DNA from: an uncultured Chthonomonas sp.
Lineage (GTDB): Bacteria; Armatimonadota; Chthonomonadetes; Chthonomonadales; CAJBBX01
DNA: 58,497 bases
Assembly: GCA_903885605.1 (NCBI GenBank)
Contig: CAISJD010000026.1
Location: forward strand, 1 to 58,497
Direction: 5' to 3'
The stretch's first letter is position 1. Each line of letters begins with the position of its first letter. A model generated the notes under the pieces. The model ran no database searches and was not told where the DNA came from. It saw nothing but the letters and a program-made list of their open reading frames with translations. The position numbers were made by a program, and so were the translations under genes. Positions 4,262 through 37,552 of this stretch are shown piece by piece.

Positions 4262-4297
4262 TTCGGCGACCCGCTGTGAGCCGTTGCCGGCCAAACG

Positions 4298-6568: not shown

Positions 6569-6657
6569 CTGACCCTCCTTGCGTCCGGCTTGCGCTTTGT
6601 GAAGGAGTTTTGGCGTTATTGACAAGGTGACATTACTGCCAACAAGGGCCGGGGTGT

Positions 6658-7974: not shown

Positions 7975-7994
7975 GGTGGTGTTCCCGTCCCAAA

Positions 7995-8029: not shown

Positions 8030-8050
8030 GGCTGGACGGCTGGTGGGTCG

Positions 8051-8106
8051 CCATTCGCCATTCGCCATTCGCCATTTGCCATTCGCCATTCGCCATTCAC
8101 CATTCG
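8051..8106. repeat. Heptanucleotide tandem repeat, CCATTCG type, 8 units
   Basis: Eight consecutive 7-nt units run from 8051 to 8106. Six are exact CCATTCG; unit 4 is CCATTTG and unit 7 is CCATTCA. The array ends 3 nt before the stop codon of the DUF1549/1553 gene (8110) and sits 21 nt from the GTCTAAA array. Together the two arrays fill most of the 135-nt gap, which has no other recognisable content. Confidence 0.92.
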
Positions 8107-8109
8107 CCC

Positions 8110-9672: not shown

Positions 9673-9740
9673 CTCTCGCGCCGGGATCGCACCGCACGGC
9701 GCACAGTCCTAAAGACGCCGCCGGGGGCCGTTTGTTCGCC

Positions 9741-10148
9741 TCAGACGGGCTGATGGGCGTCGTTGACGTAGAGGCTGATGGCCCCGGCGCGCTCGCCGTC
9801 GATGGCCACCTCGAACTCGTAGCTGCCGAAGGCCGGGAAGGCGATGTTGCCCATCTCCAGGACGAACGTATGCTCCGGATCGGGCCTGGGGTCGGCTTCC
9901 GGGAAGAGGATCGGCATCTCCGGCGGCGCGTCCAGCAGCTTGCCGTCGGCGTCGCGCAGGCGGATGCCCAGGCTGTGCGGCTCGCCCTTCTCCCCCACCT
10001 CGGCGCGGATGCGAACCACCACGAACATGCGCAGGTGGTGGCAGGGCACGACCGTGGCGTGGATCATGTCGAACACGCCGAGCAGGTTGAGCTTGCCGTC
10101 CCCCGTCGTGTTCACGGCATCGGCCAGCAGCGCCAGGCTCACGTACAT
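9741..10148 (-). CDS. DUF6941-like small protein (135 aa)
   Basis: The sequence MYVSLALLADAVNTTGDGKLNLLGVFD matches my recollection of DUF6941-family proteins, which share a SLALLAD...GKLN..G.FD start and a beta-rich body. Residues after 60 alternate hydrophobic strands (LGIRLRDADGKLL, YEFEVAIDGERAG), consistent with a small beta-sandwich. There is no signal peptide, so it is probably cytoplasmic. GGGG lies about 8 nt before the ATG. It is divergent from the glutaminase-like gene, with a 117-nt shared upstream region. No function is known. Confidence 0.75.
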   Translation of the reverse strand: MYVSLALLADAVNTTGDGKLNLLGVFDMIHATVVPCHHLRMFVVVRIRAEVGEKGEPHSLGIRLRDADGKLLDAPPEMPILFPEADPRPDPEHTFVLEMGNIAFPAFGSYEFEVAIDGERAGAISLYVNDAHQPV

Positions 10149-10265
10149 GCAGGTTCCCCCGAGGGCAAGGTTCGCCCCAACCGCCGCCGACTCCTGCCCG
10201 GCGGCCCATTCTGGTACAGTGAGCGATCCGAGGCCGCCGAAGACGCCCGGGGAAGGGTCACCGCC

Positions 10266-12803: not shown

Positions 12804-13768
12804 GAGCGGCTGGCCGCCTGCTGGTCACCGGCGCCTCGGGCTTCGTCGGCGGCAACGTCGTCGCCCGGGCCGGAGTGGAGTGGGATGTCCACGCCGTGAG
12901 CCGCCGCGCCGTTGCGGGAGCGCCGCCCGGCGTGACATGGCACGTGGCCGACATCGGCGACCCGGCGGCGTTGCGCGCGCTGTTCGAGCAGGTGCGGCCC
13001 ACGGCGGTGATCCATGGCGCGGCGGCGGCGGACATCGACTGGTGCGGCCGCAACCGGGCCGAAGCGTGGCGGGTTAATGTGGGCATCACGGAGGGCCTGG
13101 CCGAGCTGTGCGCGGCCGCCCGCGCTCGGCTGGTCTTCATGTCGACCGACAACGTCTTCGACGGGACCGGAAGCATGGCGACCGAGGCCGACGAGCCCAA
13201 CCCGGTGAACTTCTACGGCGAGACCAAGCTGGCCGCCGAGCGTTCGGTGGCTTCCATCGCTCCGAGTTACGTCATCGCCCGGCTGGCGCTCGTCATGGGC
13301 CTGCCGGCGTTCGGCGAGGGCAACTCCTTCCTGGGCCGCATGTGGACCACGTGGAATGAGGGCGGGACCGTCGGCCTCCCGGACACAGAGGTCCGAACGC
13401 CGATCGACGTGATCTCGCTCTCCCAGGCGCTCCTGCACCTGGCTAACGGACCCTTCACCGGAGTGATCCACCTGCCGGGCGCCGACCGGGTGGACAGGGT
13501 CACCATGGCCCGCCGCATCGCGCTCCGCCTCGGCTTCCGCGCCGATCAGGTGGAGGCGCGCACGCCCGACCCGTCACCCGACCGCTCCGCGCGGCCATTG
13601 GACGTGTCCATGAGCGGCACGCTGGCCACCGTCATGCTGCGAACGCGCCTGCTCGGACTGGAGGCCGGCCTCGACCGAGTGCTCGACGAAGGGCGAGGTG
13701 GCACGGACGACCACGGACCGACACGGACAGCCACGGACCCACACGGACCGCCCCTGCCGTCATCCTGA
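12800..13768 (+). CDS. NAD(P)-dependent RmlD-like short-chain dehydrogenase/epimerase
   Basis: The GTG start at 12800 overlaps the previous stop (GTGA), with GAGGA about 10 nt upstream, so translation is coupled. Residues 10-17 TGASGFVG are the Rossmann motif; S115/T116 and Y139-x3-K143 (FYGETK) form the catalytic set. The family (extended SDR, dTDP-4-dehydrorhamnose reductase-like) reduces or epimerises nucleotide sugars. The C-terminal tail (about 22 residues, GTDDHGPTRTATDPHG) is translated from the decamer repeat at 13701-13750. The stop TGA lies inside a second dispersed repeat, so the original stop was probably a little upstream or was lost. Confidence 0.88.
   Translation: MRAAGRLLVTGASGFVGGNVVARAGVEWDVHAVSRRAVAGAPPGVTWHVADIGDPAALRALFEQVRPTAVIHGAAAADIDWCGRNRAEAWRVNVGITEGLAELCAAARARLVFMSTDNVFDGTGSMATEADEPNPVNFYGETKLAAERSVASIAPSYVIARLALVMGLPAFGEGNSFLGRMWTTWNEGGTVGLPDTEVRTPIDVISLSQALLHLANGPFTGVIHLPGADRVDRVTMARRIALRLGFRADQVEARTPDPSPDRSARPLDVSMSGTLATVMLRTRLLGLEAGLDRVLDEGRGGTDDHGPTRTATDPHGPPLPSS
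13701..13750. repeat. Five 10-nt CACGGAC repeat units
   Basis: Five consecutive decamers of form N-CACGGAC-NN are exactly in 10-nt register, all within the 3' end of the SDR coding region. The same unit in the same period recurs, in both orientations, at 37616-37706. Confidence 0.9.
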
Positions 13769-21129: not shown

Positions 21130-21711
21130 ATGCACCCTTCGCTGCGACCGCAACGGCTCATATCGGCCTATTGCCAGGCCGCATTCCCCATGGCAGAGCC
21201 GGAATCGGGCCTGATCTACTGGTTCCGTCCCGACCCCAGAGCCATTATGCCCCTCGATGGCTTCCACATCTCCCGTTCGCTGGCGAAGACGCTCCGACGA
21301 GGCGCGTTCGAGACCACCGTGAACGCTGCATTCGAGCGCGTCATGCGGGCCTGCGCCGACCGAGACGAGACCTGGATCAGCGAGGAGTTCATCGAGGCCT
21401 ACTGCGAACTGCACCGGATCGGTACTGCTCACTCGGTGGAGGTCTGGGCAGACGGCGAACTGGCAGGCGGCACCTACGGCGTGGCGCTGGGCGGGGCCTT
21501 CATGGCGGAGAGCATGTTCCATATCCGCACGGACGCCTCCAAGGTCGCCCTCGCCGCCCTCGTCAAGCGGCTGAACGAACGCGGGTTCAGCCTGATGGAC
21601 GTGCAGTACATGACCGACCACCTGGCCAAGCTGGGCGCCGTGGAGATACCCGGCCGCAGGTACGAGCATCGCCTGGCCGCGGCCCTGGCCGCCGACTGCG
21701 CCTTCGACTAG
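21130..21711 (+). CDS. aat: Leucyl/phenylalanyl-tRNA--protein transferase
   Basis: This 193-aa protein matches the Aat family throughout: LISAYCQAAFPMAEP and YWFRPDPRAIMPL at the N-terminus, TWISEEFIEAYCELHRIGTA and HSVEVWADGELAGGTYGVALG in the centre, and ESMFH, which is part of the active site. Aat transfers Leu/Phe from aminoacyl-tRNA to N-terminal Arg/Lys of proteins, marking them for ClpS/ClpAP. The start at 21130 is the first Met in frame that fits the family; the Shine-Dalgarno is weak. The stop overlaps the convergent aldehyde dehydrogenase stop by 4 nt. It is shorter than the ~230 aa of E. coli, as in many non-proteobacterial members. Confidence 0.94.
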   Translation: MHPSLRPQRLISAYCQAAFPMAEPESGLIYWFRPDPRAIMPLDGFHISRSLAKTLRRGAFETTVNAAFERVMRACADRDETWISEEFIEAYCELHRIGTAHSVEVWADGELAGGTYGVALGGAFMAESMFHIRTDASKVALAALVKRLNERGFSLMDVQYMTDHLAKLGAVEIPGRRYEHRLAAALAADCAFD

Positions 21712-23321
21712 GCGGGGTTTCGGGGCAACGCCCGTCGGGTGGCCTCGCCGTCGACGATGCGCTCCAGGCCCAGCGGGTTGGCGTCTTGCAGCGCCGGCGG
21801 CAGGAGGGCGTCGGGCAGGCTCTGATAGCTCACGGGCCTCACGAACCGCCGGATGGCCAGCGTCCCCACGGAGGTGGAGTTCGCCGCGGTGGTGGCCGGG
21901 TACGGGCCTCCGTGGACGATGGCGCCGCAGACTTCGACGCCCGTCGGGTACCCGTTGAGGACCAGCCGGCCCACGCGACGCTCCAGGATCGCGGCCACGC
22001 GGCGGACGTCGGCGTCCAGGTCGGCGGCGCCGGTGAAGAGGGAGCCCGTCAGCTGCCCGTGAAGGCAGGCGACCGTGGCGGCCAGGTCCTCAAGGTCGCC
22101 GCAGCGCACCAGCAGCGTGCAGGGACCGAACGCCTCCTCGTGCAGGCCGGGGTTTGCGCGCCACACGTCGCCGGCCACCGCATAGAGGCGAGGTCCGTGG
22201 CCGCACTCGCCGCGTCGGCACCCCGCCTCCAGGACCTCCACGCCCGACGCCTCGGAGATGCTGTCCGCCCGGCGCACGAAGCTCTCCGATATGGAGCGGC
22301 TGAGCAGCGTGATCGGCGCGACCCGGCGCATCTCGCGCCCCAGGGCCTCTTCGAACAGGTCGCTCTCCGCACCCGCCGGCAGGAAGACCAGCCCTGGCTT
22401 GGTGCAGAACTGGCCGCCGCCGTTGGTCACCGAGAGGCAGAGGCCGGCCGCGATGGCCTCCGGCCGCTCTCGGACCGCGCCGGGCAGCAGGACGATGGGG
22501 TTGACGCTGCCCATCTCGGCGAAGACCGGTATGGGCCGGGGACGGGCCGCGGCCTTGTCGAACAGCGCCCGGCCGCCCCGCAGCGAGCCCGTAAAGCCCA
22601 CGGCCTCGCAGTCGGGATGCTCCACCACCGCCGCGCCGACCGCCGTGCCTGCGCCCTGCACGAGCCCGAACATGCCGGCAGGCAGGCCTACGTCGCCCAG
22701 CGCCGCAAGCACCGCCGCGGCGCAGTACTCATCGACGCCGGCATGGCCCGGATGGCCCTTTGCCACCACGGGGTTGCCGCAGGCCAGGGCTGACGCCGTA
22801 TCGCCGCCGCAGACGCCGTAGGCGAAGGGGAAGTTGCCGGCGCCGAAGACCCCCACGGGCCCTATGGGCCGGAAGATGCGCCTCAGATCCGGCCGGGGCG
22901 TGGGCTTCCGGCCGGGGTCTGCCGTGTCGATGACCGGCTCCAGCCAGGCGCCCGCGCGCGCCATGGAGGCGTAGAGGCGAAGCTGGGTGACCGTGCGCGC
23001 CCGCTCGCCGACCAGTCTGGCCTCGGTGAGCGCCGTCTCGGCCATGGCCCGGTCGATCAGGGCCTCGCCCAGGCCGACGAGCCGCTCCGCGACGGCCTCC
23101 AGCAGGTCGGCCCATCGATGGTGCGGGAGGCTCCGGACCTGCTCGAAGGCGGCCGAGGCGGCGGCATAGGCGGCATCGACCTCGGCGGCGCCCGCCTCAC
23201 GAAAGGCCGGCGGCAGCGCATCGCCGGTCTCGGGTGAGCATGGTTGCGCGGAGCCGACGCCCGTAGCCGCCCACTCTCCGTCGATCAGGTGCGCGCCGGT
23301 CAGCGCGTGCGTCCAGGTCAT
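21708..23321 (-). CDS. NAD(P)+-dependent aldehyde dehydrogenase, alpha-ketoglutarate semialdehyde dehydrogenase-like
   Basis: The start is the ATG at 23321, 8 nt after AGGAG; an in-frame GTG lies 9 nt upstream. The 537-aa protein has the aldehyde dehydrogenase catalytic residues E269 (VFAEMGSVNP) and C306 (TNGGGQFCTKPG) and the nucleotide-binding run GVFGAGNFPFAYG. The GGGQFCTKPG form and the short A...GD.ASALA context resemble ketoglutarate-semialdehyde dehydrogenases of pentose, hexarate and hydroxyproline oxidation. That would place it at the end of a sugar-acid pathway. It is divergent from the glycyl radical enzyme, with a 133-nt gap between start codons. Confidence 0.85.
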   Translation of the reverse strand: MTWTHALTGAHLIDGEWAATGVGSAQPCSPETGDALPPAFREAGAAEVDAAYAAASAAFEQVRSLPHHRWADLLEAVAERLVGLGEALIDRAMAETALTEARLVGERARTVTQLRLYASMARAGAWLEPVIDTADPGRKPTPRPDLRRIFRPIGPVGVFGAGNFPFAYGVCGGDTASALACGNPVVAKGHPGHAGVDEYCAAAVLAALGDVGLPAGMFGLVQGAGTAVGAAVVEHPDCEAVGFTGSLRGGRALFDKAAARPRPIPVFAEMGSVNPIVLLPGAVRERPEAIAAGLCLSVTNGGGQFCTKPGLVFLPAGAESDLFEEALGREMRRVAPITLLSRSISESFVRRADSISEASGVEVLEAGCRRGECGHGPRLYAVAGDVWRANPGLHEEAFGPCTLLVRCGDLEDLAATVACLHGQLTGSLFTGAADLDADVRRVAAILERRVGRLVLNGYPTGVEVCGAIVHGGPYPATTAANSTSVGTLAIRRFVRPVSYQSLPDALLPPALQDANPLGLERIVDGEATRRALPRNPA

Positions 23322-23454
23322 CGCAACCACTCCTCGCGCATCTTCGATGGTGCTTGCGCCGATTCTACCAGACCGTTCCGGCGGCAGTCAGGGCTCGGAC
23401 GGCGCGTGCGGGGTACTCTCGAAACAGGCCCAACATGGGCGAGGAGGCCGAGCC
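23322..23454. promoter_or_regulatory. Divergent intergenic region, aldehyde dehydrogenase / glycyl radical enzyme
   Basis: This 133-nt gap must hold both outward promoters. I see GAGGAGG at 23441-23447 as the ribosome-binding site for the GTG at 23455, and AGGAG for the minus-strand gene. A weak TACTCT near 23413 could be a -10 for the plus strand, but no convincing -35 accompanies it. Promoter placement is a guess. Confidence 0.4.
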
Positions 23455-25677
23455 GTGCAACGTGACGCCGACACCCCGACGCGACATGCCATCCAGGAGC
23501 GCGCTCTGGCGCCCAAGCCCGCCTCGATGAAGGAGCAGCGGCTGTCGGAGGCCTTCTTCGACCTCTATGCCGGCCTGCCCCACCGCGAGCGCCACGCCCG
23601 GTCGCTGGCCTACGCGCTGACGCACGAGCCGGTGCGCCTCTACCCCGGCGAGGGCCTCGTGGGGACGATCCACCAGGCCTGCCCCGGCGGCGGGTGTCCG
23701 CAGTGGGGCGGCGGCGGCGACCCGCGCTGGGACGGCCTCTCCGTGGTCGCCGAGGGCTTCCGCCGCGTGGCCGAGGAGCTCCCCGAGGACGCGGAGCTGA
23801 CGGGCGACGCCGGCGGCGCGTTCCTGATCTCCGGCGGCGCCTTCCCGGGTCACATCGGCTGGGACTGGCGGCTGATCGTGGAGCAGGGCGTGCTCATTCT
23901 CATCGACCGCTGCCGCGCCCGCGCCGCCGAGGACCCGGCCCACGCGCCCTTCTACGAGGGAGCCGTCATCGCATGGGAGGCCGTGCTGGCGTGGAACGAC
24001 GCACACGTGGCCGCCATGGAAGCCTGCCTGACGGACGCCGAGCCCGATGAGCGCGGCCGCTTGGAGCGCCTCATCGCCCTCTGCCGGCGCGTCCCGGCGC
24101 ACCCGGCGCGCAGCTTCCACGAGGCAGTGCAGGCGTTCCACTTCCAGCATCTCACCGTCATGCTCGAGAACCCCTTCGGAGGCAATGGCCCGGGGCGTGT
24201 GGACACGGTGCTGGGGCCCTACCTCGACCGCGACCTGGCTTCGGGAGCCGTCACGCCGGCGGAGGCGCGCGGACTGGTCACCGAGATGCTGCTGAAGTTC
24301 CACGAGCGCCTGGCGCCGGCGGACGGCTGGGTCGAGACCATCATGGTCGGCGGCGCGGACGCGCAGGGGCGCTGGACCGGCAACACGCTCTCCAGCCTCA
24401 TCGTCGAATGCTACATGGAGCTGAGCCAGACGCACCCGGCCGTCTACATGCGACTGGCGAAGAGCGCCCCCGACGACTTCGTGCGGCTGGCGGCGAGGTA
24501 CATGGTGGCCGGGGACAATCGCGCACAGATCCTGAACGACGACGCGATCGTCCCGGCGATGGTCGCTGCGGGCGTGGACGCCGACGATGCCGCGGACTAC
24601 ATGTGCGGCGGCTGCATGGAGATCAGCGCGCAGGCGAAGGCCGGCGACCTGCGCTTCACAATGATCCACAGCATCCCCAAGGTCGTCGAACTGCTGCTCA
24701 CCGGCGGCGAGTGCCTCATCACCGGCCGACGCCGCTCCGGGTTCGGGCCCGGGCTGGCGGGTTATGCCTCGTTCGAGGCGCTCTACGCGGCCTTCGAGGC
24801 CGAGTTGGCTCGCGAGGCCGGCGTGGCGGTGCGGAGGCTCGACATCTGGGGCGAGTGCGTCGCCGAGCGGCGTCCCACCTTCCTGATCTCCAGCCTGGTG
24901 CATGACTGCCTGGAGACGGGCCTCGACCTGCACGAAGGCGGCGCCCGGTACAACGACTACGGCACGGCCCCGGTGGGCATCCCCAACGCCGCCGACGCGC
25001 TCTACGCCGTGCAGCGCGCCCTCTTCACCGACGGCCTCTGCACCGCCGAGGAGATGCTTGCCGCCCTGCGAGCGGACTTCAGCGGTCACGAGCTGCTGCA
25101 CCGCGCCCTCTGCCGCCTGCCCCGGTTCGGCCAGGAGCACGCCGGGGCCGATGCCATGGCCGGGCGCGTGCTGCAGAGCGTCGCCGACGCCTACGCGGCC
25201 ACGCGGGGCCGGTTGGGCGGACGGCTCCTGCCCATGGTCTTCAACTTCGTCTGGACGCCCATGGTAGGCGGCGCGCTGGGCGCCTCGCCGGACGGGCGGC
25301 GCGCGGGCGCAACGGTGGCGCACGGGCTCACGCCGCAGGCATCGGGCATGACCGGCGGGCTCACGGCGGCGGTCAACTCCTGCACCTCGCTGCCGCAGTG
25401 CGCCATCGCCGGGGGCGCCACGACCATGTGGGACATGGACCCGGCATGGGCCGACGAGGCGACCCTGGAGGCCGTGATCCGGGCCTTCGTCAGCCGCGGC
25501 GGGCAGATCATGCAGGGGAACACCACCTCGGTGGCCGACCTGGAGGCGGCGCTGGAGCGCCCGGCGGACTACCCGAACCTGACGGTCCGCGTGGGCGGCT
25601 TCTCCGCGCGTTTCGTGGGCCTCGACCCCGCCGTGCAGCGGGAGATCGTGACTAGGTACCGACACCGTGGCGGGTAG
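23455..25677 (+). CDS. Glycyl radical enzyme (PFL/glycerol-dehydratase-like superfamily)
   Basis: The GTG at 23455 is chosen because GAGGAGG lies 7 nt upstream, giving 740 aa. The thiyl-radical Cys is C387 in MCGGCMEIS, followed by the general base E389 (C-x-E as in dehydratase and lyase members, unlike the CC of PFL). The C-terminal radical site is R712-V-G-G715-F, 25 residues from the end; G715 is the radical glycine. These enzymes are oxygen-sensitive C-C, C-O or C-N lyases or dehydratases activated by a radical-SAM protein, which is not in the window. The closest functional subclass is unclear. The next gene overlaps by 11 nt, and an oxidative aldehyde dehydrogenase is divergent. Confidence 0.9.
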   Translation: MQRDADTPTRHAIQERALAPKPASMKEQRLSEAFFDLYAGLPHRERHARSLAYALTHEPVRLYPGEGLVGTIHQACPGGGCPQWGGGGDPRWDGLSVVAEGFRRVAEELPEDAELTGDAGGAFLISGGAFPGHIGWDWRLIVEQGVLILIDRCRARAAEDPAHAPFYEGAVIAWEAVLAWNDAHVAAMEACLTDAEPDERGRLERLIALCRRVPAHPARSFHEAVQAFHFQHLTVMLENPFGGNGPGRVDTVLGPYLDRDLASGAVTPAEARGLVTEMLLKFHERLAPADGWVETIMVGGADAQGRWTGNTLSSLIVECYMELSQTHPAVYMRLAKSAPDDFVRLAARYMVAGDNRAQILNDDAIVPAMVAAGVDADDAADYMCGGCMEISAQAKAGDLRFTMIHSIPKVVELLLTGGECLITGRRRSGFGPGLAGYASFEALYAAFEAELAREAGVAVRRLDIWGECVAERRPTFLISSLVHDCLETGLDLHEGGARYNDYGTAPVGIPNAADALYAVQRALFTDGLCTAEEMLAALRADFSGHELLHRALCRLPRFGQEHAGADAMAGRVLQSVADAYAATRGRLGGRLLPMVFNFVWTPMVGGALGASPDGRRAGATVAHGLTPQASGMTGGLTAAVNSCTSLPQCAIAGGATTMWDMDPAWADEATLEAVIRAFVSRGGQIMQGNTTSVADLEAALERPADYPNLTVRVGGFSARFVGLDPAVQREIVTRYRHRGG

Positions 25678-27901
25678 GGCACAGGGGCTCGCATCGCTCA
25701 TCGCGTTGGCTTGCATCGTCGGCCTGATCCCTGCCGCCCGCGGCCATGACGCCGATGACGGCGCACCCACCGCCGCGGAGATCGCCCGCACGCAGCCGCC
25801 CATCCCCGGCGCAGAGGAGTTCGCACGCGCCCTGCTCCCCGCCATGCGCGGAGGTCTGTCCGAGGCCGAGGGCGCTCGCGCGGCGGCGGTGGGCGCGGCG
25901 CTTGCAGCCCGCGACGCGGCCCGCGACGGCCGCGGGTACGGAGGGCAGCCGGCAGGTGAGTACCACCGCTGGCGGGCCGAGCAGGCGCTTCTCGCCTTCG
26001 TCGACGGCCGCGCCGACCGGATCGACCTGGACTTCCGTGCGGGCGTCGCGCCGATCGCGGCGGCGCCGGTCGCCATCGACGGGCAGACGGGTCTGGCCAT
26101 CCTCGCGGTGCGCATGCCCGGCCCCGGCGAGCGGTTCGTCGTCCACGACATGGACCTGGCCTCGGAGCGGGACGCCGCGCCGCTCACGATCCCGGTTGCT
26201 CCGACCGGCCGCACGGTGGTCCTGCTGCGCATCGAGCAGCTACCTGCAGGCAGCAGCGTCGTGGTGGTGCGCCTCCAGCCGCCGACGGGCCCGATGCTCC
26301 TAGCATCGCTCACCTTCGTGGCCCGGCCCATGGGTCAGCTTGCGGTCTCGGTGCGCGACGAACGCGGCCGACCTGCGCCCGTGCTCATGCGCCTCACGTC
26401 CGCCGTCGGAGGGAGGCTCTGGGGGCCGGCCGGCGCCGTCGACTACCGGGAGATGATGAACGCGATCACCAGCCTGCCGATCTACGGTCCCGGCAGGGGC
26501 TACCCGGTCTGGATCCCCCTGCGCTACCAGGGCAGCTACTGGGTGGTCCCAGGCCCCTTCGACATGGCGATCCCGGCGGGCGACTGGGAGATAGAGATCG
26601 TGCGGGGACCGGAGTACGCGCCGATCCGCCGGACCGTGCGCGTGCCCGAAGCCGGCCGCGCATCCGCCGATATCCGCCTGCGCCGATGGGTGCGTATGGC
26701 CGATCGCGGCTGGTTTTCCGGCGACGACCACGTGCACTCGCGCCTGATGCACAGCGAGGACGCCGACAAGCTCCTCGCGTTCTGTCGGGCGGTGGACCTG
26801 AACGTCTGCAACGTGCTGGAAATGGGCGACCCCGCCCGGACCTGGTACCCCCAGCGTGGCTTCGGGCCGGCATTCCGCGCCCACCTGGGCGACCACTGGC
26901 TCGTTCCGGGACAAGAGGACCCGCGATCGGCGCTGGGCCACGCCATCGGGCTGAACCTGACGGCGCGAGTGCGGGACACCTCGCGGTACCTGCTGAACGA
27001 TTGGGTCGCCGGAGAGATCCACCGCCAGGGCGGCCTCTACGGCCACACACACGTGGGCAGCGGCGTCAAGGAGCTGATGACCGAGCGGGAGATGGCGCTC
27101 TACGCACCCTTCGGCATCGTCGACTTCGCCAGCGTTATGCAGGCCGGCCTGGGCACGCAGCTCTACTACGACTTCCTCAACCTCGGCTACCGCATCACCG
27201 CCACGGCCGGAAGCGATACGCCCTATGGCGGCACCATCGGCGCCGTCCGCACCTACGCCCAGTGCGGAAAGGGACCCTTCGACCCCGACCGCTGGTTTGA
27301 CGCAGTCCGTGCCGGCCGCACGTTCGTCTCCAACGGCGTCATGGTGGAGTTGACCGTGGCCGGCAAGCTGCCGGGCGATGCGCTCAAGGTCAAGCCGGGG
27401 CAGGCCGTGCGAGTGCGGGCCCGGGCCTTCGGCCTTCCGGGCGAGTGGGCGCCGCGGCGTCTGGAGGTGATCATGCTCGGCAAGACGATCAGGGCAGTGG
27501 AGGCCAAAGGTCCGGCCGGCACGGACCTGGCCGTCGACGTCCCGCTACCGGTAGGCCAGGGCGGCTGGGTCGTCGCCCGCGCATGGGGCGAGGACGGCTC
27601 CGAGGCGCTCACCAGTCCCGTCTGGCTGGAGCGAGAGGGCTTCCGCTCCTGGAGCGCGGCCGATGCCCCGGGGATCATTGCCCGCCAGATGACCACGCTG
27701 GACGAGATCGACGCGGCGCTCGCCACGGCCGTCAAAGAGGCAGCACAGCCCTGGCGGAAGCTGGATACCTACACGCACTCCATCGCCGACCGGGCGCCGG
27801 AGGTACGCGAACGGATCACCCGCGCCCGCGCCGAGTACCGAAGGCTTCTCGAACTCGCGGCCGCCGAGCGCAGGAAGATGGGGGCTCCCAGGTCGAACTA
27901 A
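25667..27901 (+). CDS. CehA/McbA-type exported metallohydrolase (PHP domain)
   Basis: The GTG at 25667 overlaps the glycyl radical enzyme end by 11 nt, indicating translational coupling. A signal peptide (LASLIALACIVGLIPAARG) starts the 744-aa protein. A long N-terminal region of beta-structure precedes the PHP-type metal site: DDHVHSRLMHSED (~353), GLYGHTHVGSG (~457) and AGSDTPYGG (~516). This D-x-H-x-H arrangement is seen in CehA/McbA proteins, first described as carbaryl hydrolases, though most members act on unknown substrates. The C-terminal half holds an Ig-like segment and a helical tail. The link with a glycyl radical enzyme is unusual. Confidence 0.85.
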   Translation: MAGRAQGLASLIALACIVGLIPAARGHDADDGAPTAAEIARTQPPIPGAEEFARALLPAMRGGLSEAEGARAAAVGAALAARDAARDGRGYGGQPAGEYHRWRAEQALLAFVDGRADRIDLDFRAGVAPIAAAPVAIDGQTGLAILAVRMPGPGERFVVHDMDLASERDAAPLTIPVAPTGRTVVLLRIEQLPAGSSVVVVRLQPPTGPMLLASLTFVARPMGQLAVSVRDERGRPAPVLMRLTSAVGGRLWGPAGAVDYREMMNAITSLPIYGPGRGYPVWIPLRYQGSYWVVPGPFDMAIPAGDWEIEIVRGPEYAPIRRTVRVPEAGRASADIRLRRWVRMADRGWFSGDDHVHSRLMHSEDADKLLAFCRAVDLNVCNVLEMGDPARTWYPQRGFGPAFRAHLGDHWLVPGQEDPRSALGHAIGLNLTARVRDTSRYLLNDWVAGEIHRQGGLYGHTHVGSGVKELMTEREMALYAPFGIVDFASVMQAGLGTQLYYDFLNLGYRITATAGSDTPYGGTIGAVRTYAQCGKGPFDPDRWFDAVRAGRTFVSNGVMVELTVAGKLPGDALKVKPGQAVRVRARAFGLPGEWAPRRLEVIMLGKTIRAVEAKGPAGTDLAVDVPLPVGQGGWVVARAWGEDGSEALTSPVWLEREGFRSWSAADAPGIIARQMTTLDEIDAALATAVKEAAQPWRKLDTYTHSIADRAPEVRERITRARAEYRRLLELAAAERRKMGAPRSN

Positions 27902-27962: not shown

Positions 27963-29954
27963 ATGAGACACTGGCTCGTGGCCGCGCTTGCGGCAGGCCT
28001 ATGCATGGCCCGGACGGCGTCGGCCCAGGAGCCGAGCACGAGGGACCTCTACTCCGACACCTGGGTGGCATCGGACGCCCTGGGCCGCACCATGCCCGAC
28101 CTGAAGGCCGTGGGCCCCGTGAAGAACGACCAGCGCCGCGTGGTGGGCATCTTCTACATCGCGTGGCACAGCGACAGCGGCAACAAGAACTTCAAGAGCC
28201 CCTACGGCGCGGACGTGGCGCGCATCCTGGCCAAGGACCCCAAGGCTCGTCTCGACGCCAACCACCCGCTCTGGACCGAGGGCTCCTACCACTGGGGCGA
28301 GCCGGAGATGGGCTACTTCCTGAGCAAGGACGAGTGGGTCATCCGCAAGGACATGTCCATGCTGGCCGACGCGGGCGTGGATGTGCTGGTGATGGATGTC
28401 ACCAACGCCGTGCGCTACTGGGACGAGTGGGACGTGATCTTCCCGGTGATGCAGAAGATGAAGGCCGAGGGCAACAAGGTGCCCAAGTTCTGCTTCTGGG
28501 CCTTCAACGGGCCGGTCATCACCGTGGTGCAGGACCTCTACGAGAAGATCTACAAGGCCGGGAAGTACAAGGACCTCTGGTACTACTGGGACGGCAAGCC
28601 GCTGATGCTCCACAACGGCATGCCCTCCACGGATGCCAACGGCGGCGGCTTCACCAACCCCAACCCAAACTACGTCGCGGCGGCCAAGACCGACCCCACG
28701 CACCCCCGCTACGGCGACCCCGACTACTGCGAGCCGCTCTACAAGGACTACACCAAGGAGGTGAAGGAGTACTTCACGCTCCGCACCATGTGGTGGGGCT
28801 ATCACCAGTGGGCCGGCAAGCGGTTCGTCGGCACTGAGGACAACTGGAGCTTCGGCTACGACCTGGCCCACGAGCCCGTGAAGAAGATGAACCCCATGGA
28901 CCTGGTCTCCACGCACCAGGGCAAGCGCGAGGAGGCAGCGGTGACCCCGGCGCAGCATCCCTCCAGCCATGTGGGCAAGTCATGGACCCGCGAGAAGGGC
29001 GAACCCAAGCTCAACGACCAGGATCTGCCCGAGCCCACCTTCGTCCCATGGCTCGGCAAGACGGTTGCGAACCCCGAGGGCTACGGCATCTACTTCCAGC
29101 AGCGCTGGGACGAGGCGCTTGCCGCCAACCCGCAGTTCCTCTACATTAATGACTGGAACGAGTGGACCGCCGGCAAGTACCCGCCCGCCGCGGGCACCAA
29201 GTTCCCCTTCCTGGGCCGGCAGAGCGACTACTTCTTCGTCGATCAGTACAACCCGGAGTTCAACCGCTGCGTCCAGCCCATGAAGGGCGGCTACACTGAC
29301 AACTATTATATGCAGATGGCGCAGAACATCCGGCGCTACAAGGGCGTCCGGCCCATCCCTGAGAACCGCGGCCTGTCGCAGGTGAAGATCGACGGAGCCT
29401 TCGGCGACTGGTCCGGCGTCAGCGTCGAGTACCGCGACACGGTCCGCGATAATGCCCACCGCGACTACATCGGCTACGGCGGCCTGAAGTACACCAACAC
29501 GTCGGGCCGCAACGACATCGTCACCGCCAAGGTGGCCATGCGCCGCGACGCGGTGGCGTTCACCGCCGAGTCCGCCGCGCCGCTCACCCCATACACCGGC
29601 CGCAACTGGATGCTCCTGCTGATCGACGCCGACAAGGACCCGAAGACCGGCTGGCAGGGGTACGACTTCGTCGTCAACCGAAGCGTCCTCAGCTCAACGA
29701 CCACCACCCTGATGCGCTGGACCAAGGCCGGCGTGTGGGAGACCGTGGCCAAGCTGCCCTACCGCGCCTCCGGCAAGGCGCTGGAGCTGAGTATCCCCCG
29801 CAAGTTGCTGGGCATCGGCGGCGGCGCGGCAGCCTCCTTCGACTTCAAGTGGGCCGACAATCCGCAAGACCTGAAGGACGCCATCAGCCTCTGCACCGAC
29901 GGCGACACAGCCCCGAACCGCCGATTCAACTACCGGTTCCTCTGGAAGCGGTGA
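27963..29954 (+). CDS. GH71/GH99-like TIM-barrel protein with C-terminal CBM9-like domain
   Basis: The ATG at 27963 follows GGAACG. The signal peptide (WLVAALAAGLCMARTASA) indicates secretion. The core (~residues 55-450) has FYIAWHSDSG, WGEPEMGYF, MLADAGVDVLVMDVTN and WWGYHQWAGK, a pattern of GH71/GH99-like barrels that open alpha-mannans or alpha-glucans; exact family membership is not certain. Residues ~465-663 (VKIDGAFGDWSGVSVEYRD ... LLIDADKDPKTGWQGYDF) form a CBM9-like sugar-binding or DOMON-like beta-sandwich. A 61-nt gap separates it from the upstream PHP gene, so it may share that transcript. Confidence 0.65.
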   Translation: MRHWLVAALAAGLCMARTASAQEPSTRDLYSDTWVASDALGRTMPDLKAVGPVKNDQRRVVGIFYIAWHSDSGNKNFKSPYGADVARILAKDPKARLDANHPLWTEGSYHWGEPEMGYFLSKDEWVIRKDMSMLADAGVDVLVMDVTNAVRYWDEWDVIFPVMQKMKAEGNKVPKFCFWAFNGPVITVVQDLYEKIYKAGKYKDLWYYWDGKPLMLHNGMPSTDANGGGFTNPNPNYVAAAKTDPTHPRYGDPDYCEPLYKDYTKEVKEYFTLRTMWWGYHQWAGKRFVGTEDNWSFGYDLAHEPVKKMNPMDLVSTHQGKREEAAVTPAQHPSSHVGKSWTREKGEPKLNDQDLPEPTFVPWLGKTVANPEGYGIYFQQRWDEALAANPQFLYINDWNEWTAGKYPPAAGTKFPFLGRQSDYFFVDQYNPEFNRCVQPMKGGYTDNYYMQMAQNIRRYKGVRPIPENRGLSQVKIDGAFGDWSGVSVEYRDTVRDNAHRDYIGYGGLKYTNTSGRNDIVTAKVAMRRDAVAFTAESAAPLTPYTGRNWMLLLIDADKDPKTGWQGYDFVVNRSVLSSTTTTLMRWTKAGVWETVAKLPYRASGKALELSIPRKLLGIGGGAAASFDFKWADNPQDLKDAISLCTDGDTAPNRRFNYRFLWKR

Positions 29955-31158: not shown

Positions 31159-32052
31159 CTAGTCCCAGGCCATCTCGGCAATGCTCAGGCCGCGCCGGGG
31201 CCACTCGACGCTGGAGAGGTACCAGCCGCCCTGCTCGCCACGGATCACCTCCGGCGCGTGGGCCTCCAGTTGTGCGATGGGACGGGCGGGATCGAAGCCG
31301 CGCGGGCCGTCCGAGCGGAAGACCCATGTCTTGTGCTGGTACGCCCCCGAGAGGTCGGCGCCGTCCCAGAGGCCGTCATAGCCGCAGACGAAGAGGAAGA
31401 AGGCGCCCTCGCGCTCGACCATGAAGGGCGACTCCGGCGCGATCCCATCGGGCATCTGGAGGAGTGTCTCCGCGGCGCTCCACGTTTGAAGGTCCGCCGA
31501 GGTCCGCATCATCACCCGGTCGAGGCTGCAGTAGATCAGGTGGTCGATGTCGCCCACGCGGAAGAGCATGGGATCGCGGGTAGTCGGCTCCTCCCAGAAG
31601 AGCGGCCCTCGAGGCGTCCAGTGGATCAGGTCGGGCGAAGTCGCTAACCGGAGCGGGTCGGGTCCGTAGACCATAAGGTAGGCGTCGCCCCGCCGGACCC
31701 CGTGCGGCGCGTAGATCTGGGGCGGCTCGCCGGGGCGGTCGGCCGGGCAGAGCGCCTTGGGCAGCTCCTCCCACAGGCCCTCTACCAGCGCCTCGGCAAG
31801 CTCGCCGGGCGGGGCAGCCGCGTGGAAGAGCTGGTACTCGCCGTCGTGGACGTTGGCCGAGCTCGTGATCGGGTGCGTGATGCCCAGGGCGTGCCAACGG
31901 CCGTCCGGGCCGCGCACCACGGTGTGGTCATTGGGCACCCATTCGGCGTAGATGCGCCCGGCAGCCAACTCAACCGTGTCCGGACCGTCGAAGCGATCGG
32001 GCTCAGGCCGGTAGACTGTCACCCATGGACCCACGATCCTCGGCGTCGCCAC
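31159..32052 (-). CDS. GH43/GH32-like five-bladed beta-propeller glycosidase
   Basis: The GTG at 32052 is preceded by AGGGGAGG at a good distance; the longer upstream frame is low-complexity. The 297-aa protein has no signal peptide. It shows the blade motifs of GH43/GH32/GH117-type propellers: RIYAEWVPNDHTVVRGPDG (first acidic residue), YAPHGVRRGDAYLMVYGPDP, LRLATSPDLIHWTPRGPLF, RDPMLFRVGDIDHLIYCS (transition-state Asp candidate) and APESPFMVEREGAFFLF with a Glu that could be the acid. Such enzymes cleave arabinosides, xylosides or fructosides. It is divergent from the GH101-like gene, separated by 125 nt. Confidence 0.75.
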   Translation of the reverse strand: MATPRIVGPWVTVYRPEPDRFDGPDTVELAAGRIYAEWVPNDHTVVRGPDGRWHALGITHPITSSANVHDGEYQLFHAAAPPGELAEALVEGLWEELPKALCPADRPGEPPQIYAPHGVRRGDAYLMVYGPDPLRLATSPDLIHWTPRGPLFWEEPTTRDPMLFRVGDIDHLIYCSLDRVMMRTSADLQTWSAAETLLQMPDGIAPESPFMVEREGAFFLFVCGYDGLWDGADLSGAYQHKTWVFRSDGPRGFDPARPIAQLEAHAPEVIRGEQGGWYLSSVEWPRRGLSIAEMAWD

Positions 32053-32177
32053 AAGCCACCTCCCCTGCGCACGGGGACCGGCGAGTGTACCGACCGGGCC
32101 GCGGCACCCCATGGTACCGCCTGGCCACAGCTCAGGCGATGCGCGCGGCGGCGGCCCTCCGCCGCAAGGGGGAACGG

Positions 32178-34757
32178 ATGACCATGGCAAAGGCGCTGCT
32201 GGGCGTGGTGGCGGTTGCGACGGCGGCGCCGACGTGGGCCGGGCCGGGCGGGTTTGCGCCGCGGGTGACCGCGCTCTCGCTCTCCAGCGACCGCGTGCGC
32301 CAGGGCGGCGCCGTGCGGTGCCTCTATGAGTTCGGGAATGTCGGCTCCGCGCCGTCGGGCTCGGAGCTGATGGTCTACGTCCACCTGACGCCCGCCGAGC
32401 CCATCGCCGGAGCGTGGCAGCACGGCGGCGACTTCAGCCCGGCGCTACCCACCTACGCCTGGCCCGGCGGCTCCCGCATCGCCGAGCCGCCCCACGACCT
32501 CACCATACCGCCGACGCTCCCGCCCGGCTCCTATGACCTCTTCGTGGGCCTCTACGACAAGGCCACCGGCTCGCGATGCCCGCTCTCTGAGACGCTCGAC
32601 GGCGAGGGGCGCGCGCGCCTGGGCCGCATCACGGTGCTTCCCGGCGCTTCGACCGAGGCCGACCACCCAGTGCGCTGGGAGATCGCCCGCCGCGCCGCCA
32701 CGCGCTCCGCGTGGGATCTCCTCTCGGCGCCCGAGGCCGGGCCGGCCCTGTCCATCGGCCGAGGCGGCATTGGGGCCATCGTGTCGGACAAGGGCCCGCG
32801 TATCGTCAGTTGCACGGCGGCTGGGTCCACGCTGAGGAACTCGGGACCGAGGCTCCCCGCTCGGGTTCGGGTTCGGCGGGCCACCGACGGCGCGGCGCTC
32901 TCCGTGGTCGTTCCCGACGGCGCCTGGAAGATACAGCGATCGGCCACGGCGGCGCGCTACACGGCTGAAGTCCGCTGCGGCGACGAGGCGGCGGCGCGCA
33001 TCGATGGGGTGATCCGCGTGACGGCCACCCAGATCACCCTCGGCATCGAGAACATCACCGAGATGCCGGGCTACGAGCTGCTCGACGTCGCGCTGCCGCC
33101 GGTGCTGGGAGTGGGCGGCGACGGCTGGCTGGCGATACCCACGCAGTCGGGCAGGCTCATTCGGTTGGCGGACGCCTCGCCCGGGCAGGCGCAGATCCGC
33201 ATGGACTGGTCGAGCATGGTCCTCTGCGCCGCCGTCGGCTCCGGCGCGGCCGCCGCCGTGGTGGAGACGCGATGCTGGGACAGCGAACTGAGGGCCGTGG
33301 TGGCCGGTGAGCCGGGCCGGCTGGTGGGCTACGTGGAGCCGCTTCTGGCCTATCGGGCGCAGGCCGGACCCCGCGCGGCTCGCGTGCGGCTTGAGGAGAA
33401 GCCATCGCTGGGCATCCGCCTCGTGGCCGACGGCGACGGAGACGGGCGCACCACGTGGGTCGATGCGGCCGTCGTCCTGCGCAAGGGCGTCACCGGACGG
33501 CCCAAGCCCATCTACCGCGACGCCATGCTCTACAAGATCTTCTGCGACGCGCCCGGCTCGACGAGCTACACCACCTTCGCGCAGGCGCTGGAACTGGTGC
33601 GCACGGTCCACCGGCTGGCGCCCTGGCAGAAGCAGGTGGCCTACCTGGTCGGCTGGCAGTATGAGGGGCACGACACCGGCTACCCCGCCACCGACAAGAT
33701 CAACGCGAGGCTGGGCGGCCTGGATGAGTTCCGGCGATGCGTGGCCGAGGCGGCGAAGCTCAACGCCACGCTCAGCGTGCATGACAACTTCGACGACGCG
33801 TACCTGACCAGCCCGGCGTACGACGAGGCCCTGGTGGCCCGTGACGAGCAAGGCGATGTGCAGAAGGGCGGCGTCTGGGCCGGCGGGCAGTCCTACGTCC
33901 TCGCCTGCGGCAAGTACGCCCGGAAGGCAGGCCTCCAGCGCGTGCGCGACACGGTGGCCCGGCTGGGCCTCCGCGAGAGCTACCACATCGACGTGCTCTC
34001 GGCGGTTCCGATCCGGCGCGACTACAACCGCGAGGCGCCCGAGAACTCCCACGACGCGCTGGCCGGCAAAGTGAGCGTCGTGCGCGAGTTCAACCGCCTC
34101 GGCCTCGACCTCACGTCCGAGGGCTTCACCGCTCCGTTCATAGGCGTCATCGGCCACTCGTGGCACCTCTGGCATCGCCGCGACACCATCATCGGCGGCG
34201 AGGAGTGCATCCCCTTCGTGCCGTTCATCTACCACGGCGGCCCTACCACCTACGGCAACGGCGCACAGACCGACCACTATCCGCAGGACTCGGCGCTCTG
34301 GGGCGCGGGGTTCTCTTGCGATTGGACCAAAGAGACCGACCCGCACGAAATCGCCCGGGCCATCTACCAGGTGAACCTGCCCTGGGCGCTGCTGCGCGAG
34401 CGGCGGATGCAGGGATGGTCGCGCAAGGGCGACCTCTGCCGCGTGACCTACGACGCCGCCGGCTACGTCGAGGCCGACGAGCGCACGGGGGCATGGCGCG
34501 TGGTCGTCGACGGCGTCACCGTGGTGGAGAACGACCTCGTGACGCTGCGACGCCCGCGGGTGCTGGTGGCCTTCTCACCCACGGCTCGGGACGCCGAAGT
34601 GGCGCTTCCGTTCGACCTCGCAGGCCGTCCGCTCCGGGCCACCAACCTGCTCACAGGGGCCGTGACGCCGCTGGGCGCCCATCCGAATGGAGGCACGCTC
34701 AGGCTGAAGCTGCCGGCGTCGGAGCCGGTTGCCGTGGAGGCCGACGGCGCTCCGTAA
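32178..34757 (+). CDS. GH101-like endo-alpha-N-acetylgalactosaminidase
   Basis: The ATG at 32178 follows AAGGGGG; a second ATG is two codons later. The signal peptide (KALLGVVAVATAAPTWA) predicts secretion. After a beta-sandwich region the catalytic barrel reads IYRDAMLYKIFCDAP, AYLVGWQYEGHDTGYPATDK, HDNFDDAYLTSP, VWAGGQSYVLACGKYARK and YHIDVLSAVP, strongly resembling GH101. D605 is the likely nucleophile and E648 (LTSEGF) the candidate acid/base. GH101 releases Gal-beta-1,3-GalNAc from Ser/Thr of mucin-type glycoproteins. At 859 aa it is shorter than the streptococcal enzymes, which carry extra domains. Confidence 0.85.
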   Translation: MTMAKALLGVVAVATAAPTWAGPGGFAPRVTALSLSSDRVRQGGAVRCLYEFGNVGSAPSGSELMVYVHLTPAEPIAGAWQHGGDFSPALPTYAWPGGSRIAEPPHDLTIPPTLPPGSYDLFVGLYDKATGSRCPLSETLDGEGRARLGRITVLPGASTEADHPVRWEIARRAATRSAWDLLSAPEAGPALSIGRGGIGAIVSDKGPRIVSCTAAGSTLRNSGPRLPARVRVRRATDGAALSVVVPDGAWKIQRSATAARYTAEVRCGDEAAARIDGVIRVTATQITLGIENITEMPGYELLDVALPPVLGVGGDGWLAIPTQSGRLIRLADASPGQAQIRMDWSSMVLCAAVGSGAAAAVVETRCWDSELRAVVAGEPGRLVGYVEPLLAYRAQAGPRAARVRLEEKPSLGIRLVADGDGDGRTTWVDAAVVLRKGVTGRPKPIYRDAMLYKIFCDAPGSTSYTTFAQALELVRTVHRLAPWQKQVAYLVGWQYEGHDTGYPATDKINARLGGLDEFRRCVAEAAKLNATLSVHDNFDDAYLTSPAYDEALVARDEQGDVQKGGVWAGGQSYVLACGKYARKAGLQRVRDTVARLGLRESYHIDVLSAVPIRRDYNREAPENSHDALAGKVSVVREFNRLGLDLTSEGFTAPFIGVIGHSWHLWHRRDTIIGGEECIPFVPFIYHGGPTTYGNGAQTDHYPQDSALWGAGFSCDWTKETDPHEIARAIYQVNLPWALLRERRMQGWSRKGDLCRVTYDAAGYVEADERTGAWRVVVDGVTVVENDLVTLRRPRVLVAFSPTARDAEVALPFDLAGRPLRATNLLTGAVTPLGAHPNGGTLRLKLPASEPVAVEADGAP

Positions 34758-34867: not shown

Positions 34868-37552
34868 ATGCCTTTCACCATCACTCGACGCGGCCTGCTG
34901 TCGCTGACGGCGGGAGCCGCTCTGCCGGGACCAGGGGGTGCTGCCGTGGTAACCGCCGCTTCGCCGACCAGGGTCGGCCCGACCGACGGGCCCGCCTCGC
35001 CGCTCTTCTCTCCCATCGCCCTGCCGGGGTCGCTCGCGGTGCCGGATCTGGCCTCGCAGCCTCTCTCGCAGACCGCCCGCGACGCCGCGTTCCACGCACC
35101 CGACGGCGCCTGCGTCTGCTGGGGCATCCCCTTCGCCGTGGAGCGCATCGTTCTGCTGCAGGCGGGCTCGCAGACGCTGAAGTGGTCGCCCGTGGCGGCG
35201 CCGTGGCTCGTCTTCATGCACACCTGCGACGTCGCCTTCCAGCAGCCCGACGCCCACGGCATCGTCCACGGCTTCCGCGGCTCGGGGCTGCTCAACGAGC
35301 ATGTGGCCGACTACGTGATGCTCTACGCCGACGGCACGGAGGAGCGCGCGGCCATCCGCCGGCGACACCAGGTGGGCATGATGAGCCGTCAGTGGGGCGA
35401 GTGCTGCTTCCAGGCGGTGGCGCACCAGAGGCCCTTCCCCTTCCGCACCCTCACGGAGCAGCCCCGGCAGGGCCTCTCCTGGGGCCCCGGAGAGACGCGA
35501 GCCGCGCAGCCCGACCTGGCGCGCTGGACCAACTGGCTCTGGGCCTGGCAGAACCCGCACCCGGAGAAGCCGCTGGCCGGAGTGCGGCTGGAGCACAAGT
35601 CAGGCGCGCTCATCTGCTGTGCCGTCACCGCCGGCCGCGTCGCCACGTACCCGTTGCGGTGGGAGACGCGCCGCAAGGCGATCCTGCGCCTGCCGGACGG
35701 ACAGGCGTACCAGCCGGACCTGGACGGCGTGGGCCAGTCGCAGCACTTGAGGATGGACCTGGGCCAGGTCATCTCGCTGGAGCGGCGCCGCCTCTACCCC
35801 GACTCGGCATGGCCGGATACCTACAACAATCGCCTGCCCGCGCTGAGCGGCAACGAGCTGCTGGTGGAGTACACCGCGCACCCCGAGGCGCGCTTCGTGC
35901 TGCCCGGTGGGCGATCCGTACCCGCAGCCGAGGTGACGCCCGATGCCGACGGCCCCCTCGCCGCCGTGGCTCCGGCCACCCAGCGCGTGGCGATCCGCGT
36001 GGTGGAGAAGGGCAGCCGCAAGCCCGTGCCGGTGAAGCTCCACCTCCACGGCGCCGCCGGGGAGCAGCTGCAGCCGCTGGACCGGGCTCGCATCCCCAAC
36101 GACCACTGGTATGAGGACTGGTCCGTCGACTTCGTCCACGCGGGACTGCACCGATGCACCTACATCACCGGCGAGACCGTGGCCGACCTGCCGCTGGGCC
36201 CGGTCTACCTTGAGGTGAGCAAGGGCTTCGAGATAGCGCCCGTGCGCAAGGTGATCCGCGTCACCCGGGCCACCAGGAGCCTCGAGGTCGAGGTCGAGCG
36301 GGCGCTGGATTGGCGCGCCCGGGGCTGGGTGACGGCCGACACCCACGTCCACTTCCTCTCGCCGACCAGCGCGCACCTGGAGGGCTCGGCCGAGGGCGTG
36401 AACGTGGTGAACCTGCTGGCCAGCCAGTGGGGCGAGCTGATGACCAACGCGGGCGACTTCGACGGCCGCACCACCTACGGGTCCCGCGAGACCGGCCACG
36501 ACGGCGAGTGGCTCGTGCGGGTGGGCACCGAGAACCGCCAGCACGTCATGGGCCACATCTCGCTGCTGGGCTACAACGGCCGGGTCATCGCGCCCATGAC
36601 GGTGGGTGGCCCTGACGAGTCGGCCCTGGGCGACCCGGTCGACATTCTCCTCACCGAGTGGGCGCGCCAGTGCCGGTCGCAGGGCGGGCTGGTCGTCGTG
36701 CCGCACTTCCCCAACCCCCGCGCCGAGAACGCCGCGGCAATCGTGCAGGGGCAGGTCGACGGGCTGGAGATGACCTCCTGGGGCAACCTGACCTCGGGCA
36801 TCGATCCCTACTCGCTCTCGGACTGGTACCGGTACCTGAACTGCGGCATCTTCGTGGCCTGCGTGGCCGGGACCGACAAGATGAGCGCCAACACGCCGGT
36901 CGGGGCCATCCGCACCTACGCGAAGGTCGCCGACGGCCGTCCGTTCGACTACGAGGCCTGGAAAGACGCCGTGCGCTCGGGGAACACCTTCGCCACCTAC
37001 GGCCCGCTCGTGGAGTTCAGCGTGGAGGGCAAGCCGGCCGGCTCTCGGCTCAAGCTCGGCCGGGGCGGCGGCACGCTGCAGGTCGAGTGGCAGGCGGCCA
37101 GCGTCACCACGCCCATGACCCGCGTGGAGCTGGTCGTGAACGGCGAGGTGCGCGAGAGCAGCGCCGTGGGCGCCAAAGAGGGCCGGGGAAGCTGGAGCGT
37201 GAAGGTCGGCGGCAGCAGCTGGCTGGCCCTGCTCGTGCGCGGCCGCTACGCCGACAGGCCGGAGATGATCGCCGCCCACACGTCGCCCGTCATGGCCGAG
37301 GTAGCCGGCAAGCCCGCCTTCTCCGCACCGGACGCGCTGACCATCGTGGAGCAGATCGAAGGCGCCATGGCCTACCTCGACACCGTGGGCGCCCGAGCCG
37401 AGGCGGGCGCCTACCGCCGCATGCGCCTCCTCCTCACCCAGGCCCACCGCGAGATGCACAATAAGCTCCACCGCGCGGGCATCTACCATGACCACACATC
37501 AGGCGCCGACCACCCGGAGCATCATCAGCCACAGCCGACGGCCTGCACCTAG
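34868..37552 (+). CDS. CehA/McbA-type exported metallohydrolase with long N-terminal region
   Basis: The ATG at 34868 follows AGGG. The Tat-like leader is TRRGLLSLTAGAALPG. The PHP-type metal site is in the second half: ADTHVHFLSPTSAH (~490), VVVPHFPNPRAEN (~609) and CVAGTDKMSANTPVG (~667), with GAIRTYAKV after it as in the paralogue at 25667. Residues ~40-480 are beta-rich and may bind glycan. The 894-aa protein ends in a His-rich tail. It lies 110 nt downstream of the GH101-like gene, so the two are likely co-transcribed. The substrate is unknown. Confidence 0.82.
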   Translation: MPFTITRRGLLSLTAGAALPGPGGAAVVTAASPTRVGPTDGPASPLFSPIALPGSLAVPDLASQPLSQTARDAAFHAPDGACVCWGIPFAVERIVLLQAGSQTLKWSPVAAPWLVFMHTCDVAFQQPDAHGIVHGFRGSGLLNEHVADYVMLYADGTEERAAIRRRHQVGMMSRQWGECCFQAVAHQRPFPFRTLTEQPRQGLSWGPGETRAAQPDLARWTNWLWAWQNPHPEKPLAGVRLEHKSGALICCAVTAGRVATYPLRWETRRKAILRLPDGQAYQPDLDGVGQSQHLRMDLGQVISLERRRLYPDSAWPDTYNNRLPALSGNELLVEYTAHPEARFVLPGGRSVPAAEVTPDADGPLAAVAPATQRVAIRVVEKGSRKPVPVKLHLHGAAGEQLQPLDRARIPNDHWYEDWSVDFVHAGLHRCTYITGETVADLPLGPVYLEVSKGFEIAPVRKVIRVTRATRSLEVEVERALDWRARGWVTADTHVHFLSPTSAHLEGSAEGVNVVNLLASQWGELMTNAGDFDGRTTYGSRETGHDGEWLVRVGTENRQHVMGHISLLGYNGRVIAPMTVGGPDESALGDPVDILLTEWARQCRSQGGLVVVPHFPNPRAENAAAIVQGQVDGLEMTSWGNLTSGIDPYSLSDWYRYLNCGIFVACVAGTDKMSANTPVGAIRTYAKVADGRPFDYEAWKDAVRSGNTFATYGPLVEFSVEGKPAGSRLKLGRGGGTLQVEWQAASVTTPMTRVELVVNGEVRESSAVGAKEGRGSWSVKVGGSSWLALLVRGRYADRPEMIAAHTSPVMAEVAGKPAFSAPDALTIVEQIEGAMAYLDTVGARAEAGAYRRMRLLLTQAHREMHNKLHRAGIYHDHTSGADHPEHHQPQPTACT

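Follow-up and report, generated by a model that had tools for sequence, protein, structure and literature searches.

The window analysed here, a stretch of 58,497 nucleotides from an uncultured Chthonomonas sp. (contig CAISJD010000026.1), contains a glycyl radical enzyme (GRE) gene that overlaps the gene of a CehA/McbA-family metallohydrolase. The features discussed below, including the activase found on another contig of the same genome (C2), are the following:

21708..23330, minus strand: divergent gene of the aldehyde dehydrogenase superfamily (ALDH; PF00171, 136.6 bits)
23455..25677, plus strand: GRE gene, GTG start, 740 aa
24613..24621, plus strand: GRE Cys loop C387-M388-E389, its Cys and Glu aligned with those of HypD (6vxc)
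25597..25599, plus strand: GRE radical glycine G715 within RVGGFSARF, placed by sequence position and clade alignment
25667..25677, plus strand: GRE/CehA gene overlap, 11 nt, of the same length at L061 and L062 (both same-genus genomes)
25667..27901, plus strand: CehA/McbA-family (PHP-like) metallohydrolase, GTG start, 744 aa (NF038032, 176.2 bits, cut-off 80)
27963..29954, plus strand: downstream gene, weakly GH99-like (PF16317, 23.3 bits, cut-off 33)
C2, 29871-30704: lone PFL-type radical-SAM activase (TIGR02494, 332.8 bits, cut-off 174.35)

The GRE gene is complete, and an in-frame ATG at 23347 provides an alternative start that would give a product of 776 aa. The product has the hallmarks of the PFL-like GREs: both domains pass their Pfam cut-offs (PFL-like PF02901, 337.5 bits; Gly_radical PF01228, 56.7 bits), the predicted model has the barrel fold, and the catalytic C387 with E389 and the G715 of the RVxG[FY] motif are found exactly where the sequence-only reading had put them. 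The top structural match of the AlphaFold2 model (mean pLDDT 91, pTM 0.92) is glycerol dehydratase 1r8w (Z 44.5, 724 aligned positions, rmsd 2.4, 24% identity), followed by propane-1,2-diol dehydratases and the A. fulgidus PFL2, and Foldseek ranks the same group first. Compared with a genome of the same genus (G001), the GRE gene differs synonymously at 164 codons and nonsynonymously at 58, and the CehA gene at 179 and 87; as far as such crude counts go, both genes fit purifying selection.

In a tree of 50 GREs, from which four GREs shorter than 600 aa (L071, L073, L074 and L088) were left out, the window enzyme and 19 others are separated from the rest by a branch supported at 100/100, the stem measuring 1.53 changes per column. 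The rows of this clade come from five phyla, the Armatimonadota, Chloroflexota, Planctomycetota, Lentisphaerota and Latescibacterota. As the tree holds no PDB references, the separation of the clade from the known enzymes rests on profile scores: on the clade profile the members reach 872-1247 bits, several of the rows scored being part of the profile itself and the lowest score (872) belonging to a gene truncated by the end of its contig, versus 410 bits for the best solved structure (1r8w). A search with this profile, in which, as for the partner clade described below, the best three candidates per genome were scored and a split gene counts as two, detects the clade in at least 15 of the 291 genomes of the window's phylum. 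That the GRE is uncharacterised, as the substrate suggested in the sequence-only reading would be, is supported by the NCBIfam profile scan, where the window enzyme falls under every curated cut-off: it scores 238.2 bits against the HypD model NF043068 (cut-off 1100), 172.6 bits against the CutC model TIGR04394 (1050) and 59.7 bits against the pyruvate formate-lyase model TIGR01255 (994.2), and it has G386-C387-M388 instead of the Cys pair C418/C419 of the latter. The 15 clade members scanned match the same general GRE models, the comparison with cut-offs covering the window member. A tblastn search of plasmids with the clade GRE gave 136 records, all below 60% identity, the best rows listed being at 26-29%. 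In the literature searched, no paper was found that joins 'glycyl radical' to the name 'Armatimonadetes' (the name 'Armatimonadota' does occur with it), nor one on a 'glycyl radical enzyme' that mentions the 'same activating enzyme'. As judged from these comparisons of sequences, the window GRE is a member of a well-supported clade in which no characterised member was found.

The active site was mapped by comparing two alignments to the solved sequences, one obtained with phmmer and the other with the clade profile. The GGCME motif is present in all 16 clade rows. In both alignments, the catalytic Cys/Glu pair of HypD (375 bits on the clade profile, Z 42.0), numbered C434/E436, has its counterpart in C387 and E389, and E389 is the Glu two residues after the Cys, as in the GRE eliminases. 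The B12-independent glycerol dehydratase of Clostridium butyricum (1r8w/1r9d) shares the fold and the Cys/Glu pair, and H133 aligns with its H164 in both alignments and with H160 of HypD in the profile alignment. Unlike these residues, the H281, S282, D447 and Y339 of glycerol dehydratase, presumably substrate contacts, are replaced by G242, G243, F401 and V293 in both alignments; in the case of HypD, D278 of strand 2 and T645 are replaced by G242 and F598 (both alignments) and R156 by A129 (profile alignment). The counterpart of HypD F340 cannot be placed, since it lands in an insertion beside W292-E294. According to PMC8473560, which is also our source for the residue roles in HypD, CutC and IslA, F340 provides aromatic packing against the substrate, D278 is essential, and the E470Q variant of the IslA eliminase (CxE pair C468/E470) is without detectable activity; the same text describes the substrate and chemistry of a GRE as difficult to predict from sequence. 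As G242 has no side chain where HypD has D278, elimination would require another acid/base, for which H133, E294 and D398 are candidates. Furthermore, W136, W138, Q231, G242-G243, Y331, Y349, N355-R356, M388, D398 and F401 are invariant in 16/16 clade rows, whereas the other GREs of the same phylum, the set against which they were judged, rarely or never have them; W600 is invariant in 15/15 rows. The predicted pocket would depart from those of the known enzymes at the mapped positions, with the catalytic pair retained. As the enzyme retains the catalytic Cys, Glu and Gly along with one His, yet differs at most of the mapped contact positions of glycerol dehydratase and HypD, we read it as a putative eliminase and leave its substrate unassigned. 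Its occurrence in five phyla and its conserved, distinct pocket residues make the clade a target for new radical chemistry.

As a rule, the gene of a GRE has that of its activase as a neighbour. The sequence-only reading had noticed none near this GRE and, indeed, tblastn with the genome's own activase as query gives no match within the window at a threshold of E 1e-5. The search for an activase elsewhere, which that reading had proposed, covered the families TIGR02494 and TIGR02493 and reveals a single PFL-type activase, on contig C2: the second-best TIGR02494 match in the contigs reaches 43.8 bits, and TIGR02493 has no match above cut-off in the genome. The lone activase has the radical-SAM and 4Fe-4S domains and matches the PFLE/PFLC family (TIGR02494), but, unlike in that family, a GRE was found neither in its 19-kb stretch nor on contig C2. 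The window genome contains ten PFL-like matches, corresponding to about eight genes (those on C29 and C47 and on C35 and C73 look like contig-end halves), and nine Gly_radical matches, one more than the genes assigned. One of these other GREs (C73 and C35; L073 3-1487 and L074 9395-10186) has the Cys loop C-N-W, not C-x-E.

This gene content is not peculiar to the window genome, as both same-genus genomes have one activase each with no GRE beside it. In a set of 61 genomes, GREs and activases occur in exactly the same 24, and for 25 of the 95 GRE pieces an activase is encoded on the same contig at a distance of no more than 6 kb. Among the 291 genomes of the phylum, searched at E 1e-30 for the activase (90 of 91 above the family cut-off) and at E 1e-5 for Gly_radical, with up to 7 and up to 15 matches counted per genome, 91 have the former, 91 the latter and 88 both, with three each way, and at least 349 Gly_radical matches are counted versus at least 130 activase matches. 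Three genomes (G204, G205 and G272) have 4, 5 and 1 Gly_radical matches and no TIGR02494 match, which may reflect missing sequence or a different activase type. The multi-GRE genomes, 56 in number, have one activase in 29 cases and two or more in 27, so that sharing is not universal. At one of the 24 clade loci, L123 (G196:C142), the clade GRE is cut at the contig end and is followed, after a 74-nt gap, by a same-strand activase 65% identical to the lone one. This adjacency, the single case among these loci of a homologue of the lone activase, offers the best support for the view that activases of this type act on the enzymes of the clade. A small precedent for sharing is offered by E. coli PflA, described in PMC12338860 as acting on both PflB and GrcA. 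From the gene content, the window GRE probably shares one distant activase with about seven other GREs; a phylum in which a single activase is seen in 29 of the 56 multi-GRE genomes departs from the usual GRE-activase adjacency and lends itself to a direct test of activase promiscuity.

The reading we propose, to which we give a probability of about 0.55, starts from the predicted fold, the catalytic residues, the clade, the lone activase and the related activase beside a clade member. The window GRE would be an eliminase-type enzyme of an uncharacterised clade, activated in trans by the lone C2 activase and acting on a glycan-derived substrate. The activase would put the radical on G715, as well as on the genome's other PFL-type GREs, and the radical would pass from G715 to C387. 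The C387 thiyl would then abstract a hydrogen from the substrate, a small hydroxylated compound bound close to H133; with E389 serving as the base, a 1,2-elimination would follow, with water as the likeliest leaving group and an aldehyde or a ketone as the product. The substrate would probably be a cytosolic product of glycan breakdown, and it is conceivable that CehA and the GRE would take part in a joint pathway. A precedent for a sugar-type substrate comes from PflD and YbiW with anhydrohexitol phosphates (8id0 and 8id7, entries whose titles name carbohydrate-derived ligands), which share the fold (Z 43.0 and 40.4) but on the clade profile score 306.5 and 319.3 bits, far from the range of the members. 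The window contains a GH116-like gene and a GH101-like gene (32025-34757) and, below the Pfam cut-offs, a GH43-like gene (31159-32190) and the GH99-like gene. On the other hand, glycan genes seem plentiful in such genomes, which counts against a glycan-derived substrate.

The sequence-only reading had coupled the GRE to CehA functionally, the substrate being hydrolysed outside by CehA and its imported product cleaved inside by the GRE, a pathway that we consider unlikely. The CehA product has the motifs DHVH, HTH and GSD at 354, 460 and 515 and a hydrophobic N-terminus that is signal-peptide-like by eye, and no solved relative was found by sequence search at E 0.01. The 11-nt overlap reported by that reading is real, the CehA gene starting with the GTG at 25667 and the GRE gene ending at 25677; its conservation, with the adjacency, in all three same-genus genomes and the codon counts of both genes argue for a joint pathway. 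However, similar overlaps are common: according to our own gene finder, which was trained on the window genes and whose gene starts are unsure (the L122 and L123 genes being read from ORF lists), 22 of the 73 neighbouring co-directional pairs elsewhere in the genome overlap (9/73 by 8-60 nt), as do 5 of the 18 co-directional pairs within the window, two of them by at least 8 nt. The GRE/CehA overlap is thus not unusual in this genome and proves little. In G001 and G002 the surrounding gene order is collinear too; as the GRE/CehA order is kept along with this whole block, coupling is possible in the genus without having independent support. Furthermore, CehA adjoins the GRE at 3 of the 24 distinct clade loci and was not found at the other 21, where flank lengths are unequal and several contigs short. 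Its orthologue is present in 3 of the 61 genomes, all of one genus and split over two contigs in G002, the next-best matches showing 29-31% identity over about 360 residues. The window genome has 12 CehA/McbA-like matches, five of them above cut-off, and the window contig is the only one to hold both such a match and a GRE. Measured against the conditions that the sequence-only reading had set for its own refutation, the outcome is mixed: the activase is distant and the pair, conserved within the genus, was not found outside it, but the enzyme itself has not fallen into a known subclass. The outside-inside scheme is thus unsupported and CehA was rejected as a general partner of the clade, a role at the level of the genus being kept as a possibility: it is a separate predicted exported hydrolase, a local neighbour that may share the GRE transcript in this genus.

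Just as doubtful, in our estimation, is that the GRE would be a decarboxylase or another non-eliminase. The CxE motif occurs in the arylacetate decarboxylases too and does not separate the GRE classes, the bulky invariant W136, W138, F401, F598 and W600 would fit an aromatic or large substrate, and the arylacetate decarboxylase 7e7l comes close behind the best matches (329.3 bits on the clade profile, Z 39.6). These best matches are nevertheless the diol dehydratases, the A. fulgidus PFL2 and HypD (410 bits and Z 44.5 for 1r8w, 375 bits and Z 42.0 for 6vxc), and the 4-hydroxyphenylacetate decarboxylase 2y8n is lower (193.6 bits, Z 38.3), a shared fold not proving the chemistry. We give even less credit to the idea that the GRE has an activase of its own, missed through incomplete assembly or divergence: with an assembly in 211 contigs and several GREs cut at contig ends a second activase could be missing, but the genome is listed as 100% complete, the same-genus genomes each show one activase away from the GREs, and a single activase is also what 29 of the phylum's 56 multi-GRE genomes show.

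With the eliminase-type GRE activated in trans as the preferred reading, a better partner lead than CehA is a GRE of a second clade, which stands in same-strand tandem with the clade GRE at 3 of the 24 loci, in three families:

L122 (G196), 4045-8584, same strand: tandem GRE pair, partner first, 4-nt gap
L124 (G204), 8488-12957, same strand: tandem GRE pair, window-clade gene first
L130 (G288), 6125-9619, same strand: tandem GRE pair, window-clade gene first

In the window genome, the partner-clade copy is on C1, unlinked to the window GRE. The best solved relative of the partner clade is glycerol dehydratase (547.5 bits), and the two partner-clade proteins scanned reached no NCBIfam cut-off. 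The distance from the end of the partner match to a following activase match is 24 nt in G230 and 27 nt in G240, and in G241 a 702-bit match, outside the partner set, stops 17 nt before an activase match. This set, obtained with a cut at 865 bits and the addition of the split G288 gene, comprises at least 25 genomes, the G241 match and weaker ones being dropped. Among the matches listed, the partner clade is present in 12 of the 15 window-clade genomes (Fisher p 4.5e-6 over the 91 GRE genomes); p becomes 0.009 over the 46 genomes with at least three Gly_radical matches and 0.035 when G001, G002 and G275 are left out. A permutation stratified by GRE number gives p 0.12 (12 observed, mean 9.9), so that GRE-rich genomes explain much of the co-occurrence, which we rejected as evidence in itself; the tandem arrangement remains. 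Could these bacteria possess a GRE network, in which at least eight GREs from several clades, all uncharacterised, depend on one activase in trans and a two-clade module carries out one radical elimination after another, two in all, on a compound derived from glycans? We hold this to be a speculative and rather improbable extension. If so, losing or damaging one activase would disable all its radical pathways together.

The other neighbours of the GRE do not define a constant partner either, none having been found across the clade loci. The divergent gene upstream, described in the sequence-only reading as ketoglutarate-semialdehyde-dehydrogenase-like, is indeed a divergent ALDH, but the finer label is weak: no NCBIfam cut-off is reached among the best 25 matches listed, the best three scoring 94-99 bits versus cut-offs of 521-770. 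As a GRE partner the ALDH was rejected, with no blastp match among the genes called at 13 clade loci outside the genus. Downstream, the GH99-like gene is co-directional with the GRE and CehA genes and possibly cotranscribed with them, the gap before it being 103 nt if it starts at 28005. A second CehA/McbA-family gene (34868-37552, 133.3 bits) lies 7 kb downstream among glycosidase-like genes, and a below-cut-off CehA/McbA-like match (53.1 bits; L065 5950-7245, on C2) lies upstream of the lone activase, at a distance of about 3 kb; both same-genus genomes retain the block to which it belongs. Pfam searches on 10+10+6 selected neighbours at clade loci gave GFO/IDH dehydrogenases, URO-D, MTTB, TPP enzymes and sialidase-like and other glycan genes. 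A TPP-dependent E1 dehydrogenase-like gene (L080 6862-7968) overlaps the clade GRE by 4 nt, with gene starts of our own, and an acetolactate-synthase-like TPP gene (L129 10432-12066), with a close homologue at L128 2945-4573, is found downstream of another. An MTTB-like methyltransferase gene (L080 196-1680) and a URO-D-like gene (L079 4762-5937; close homologue at L087 5722-6906) also lie near clade GREs, a possible link to methyl transfer.
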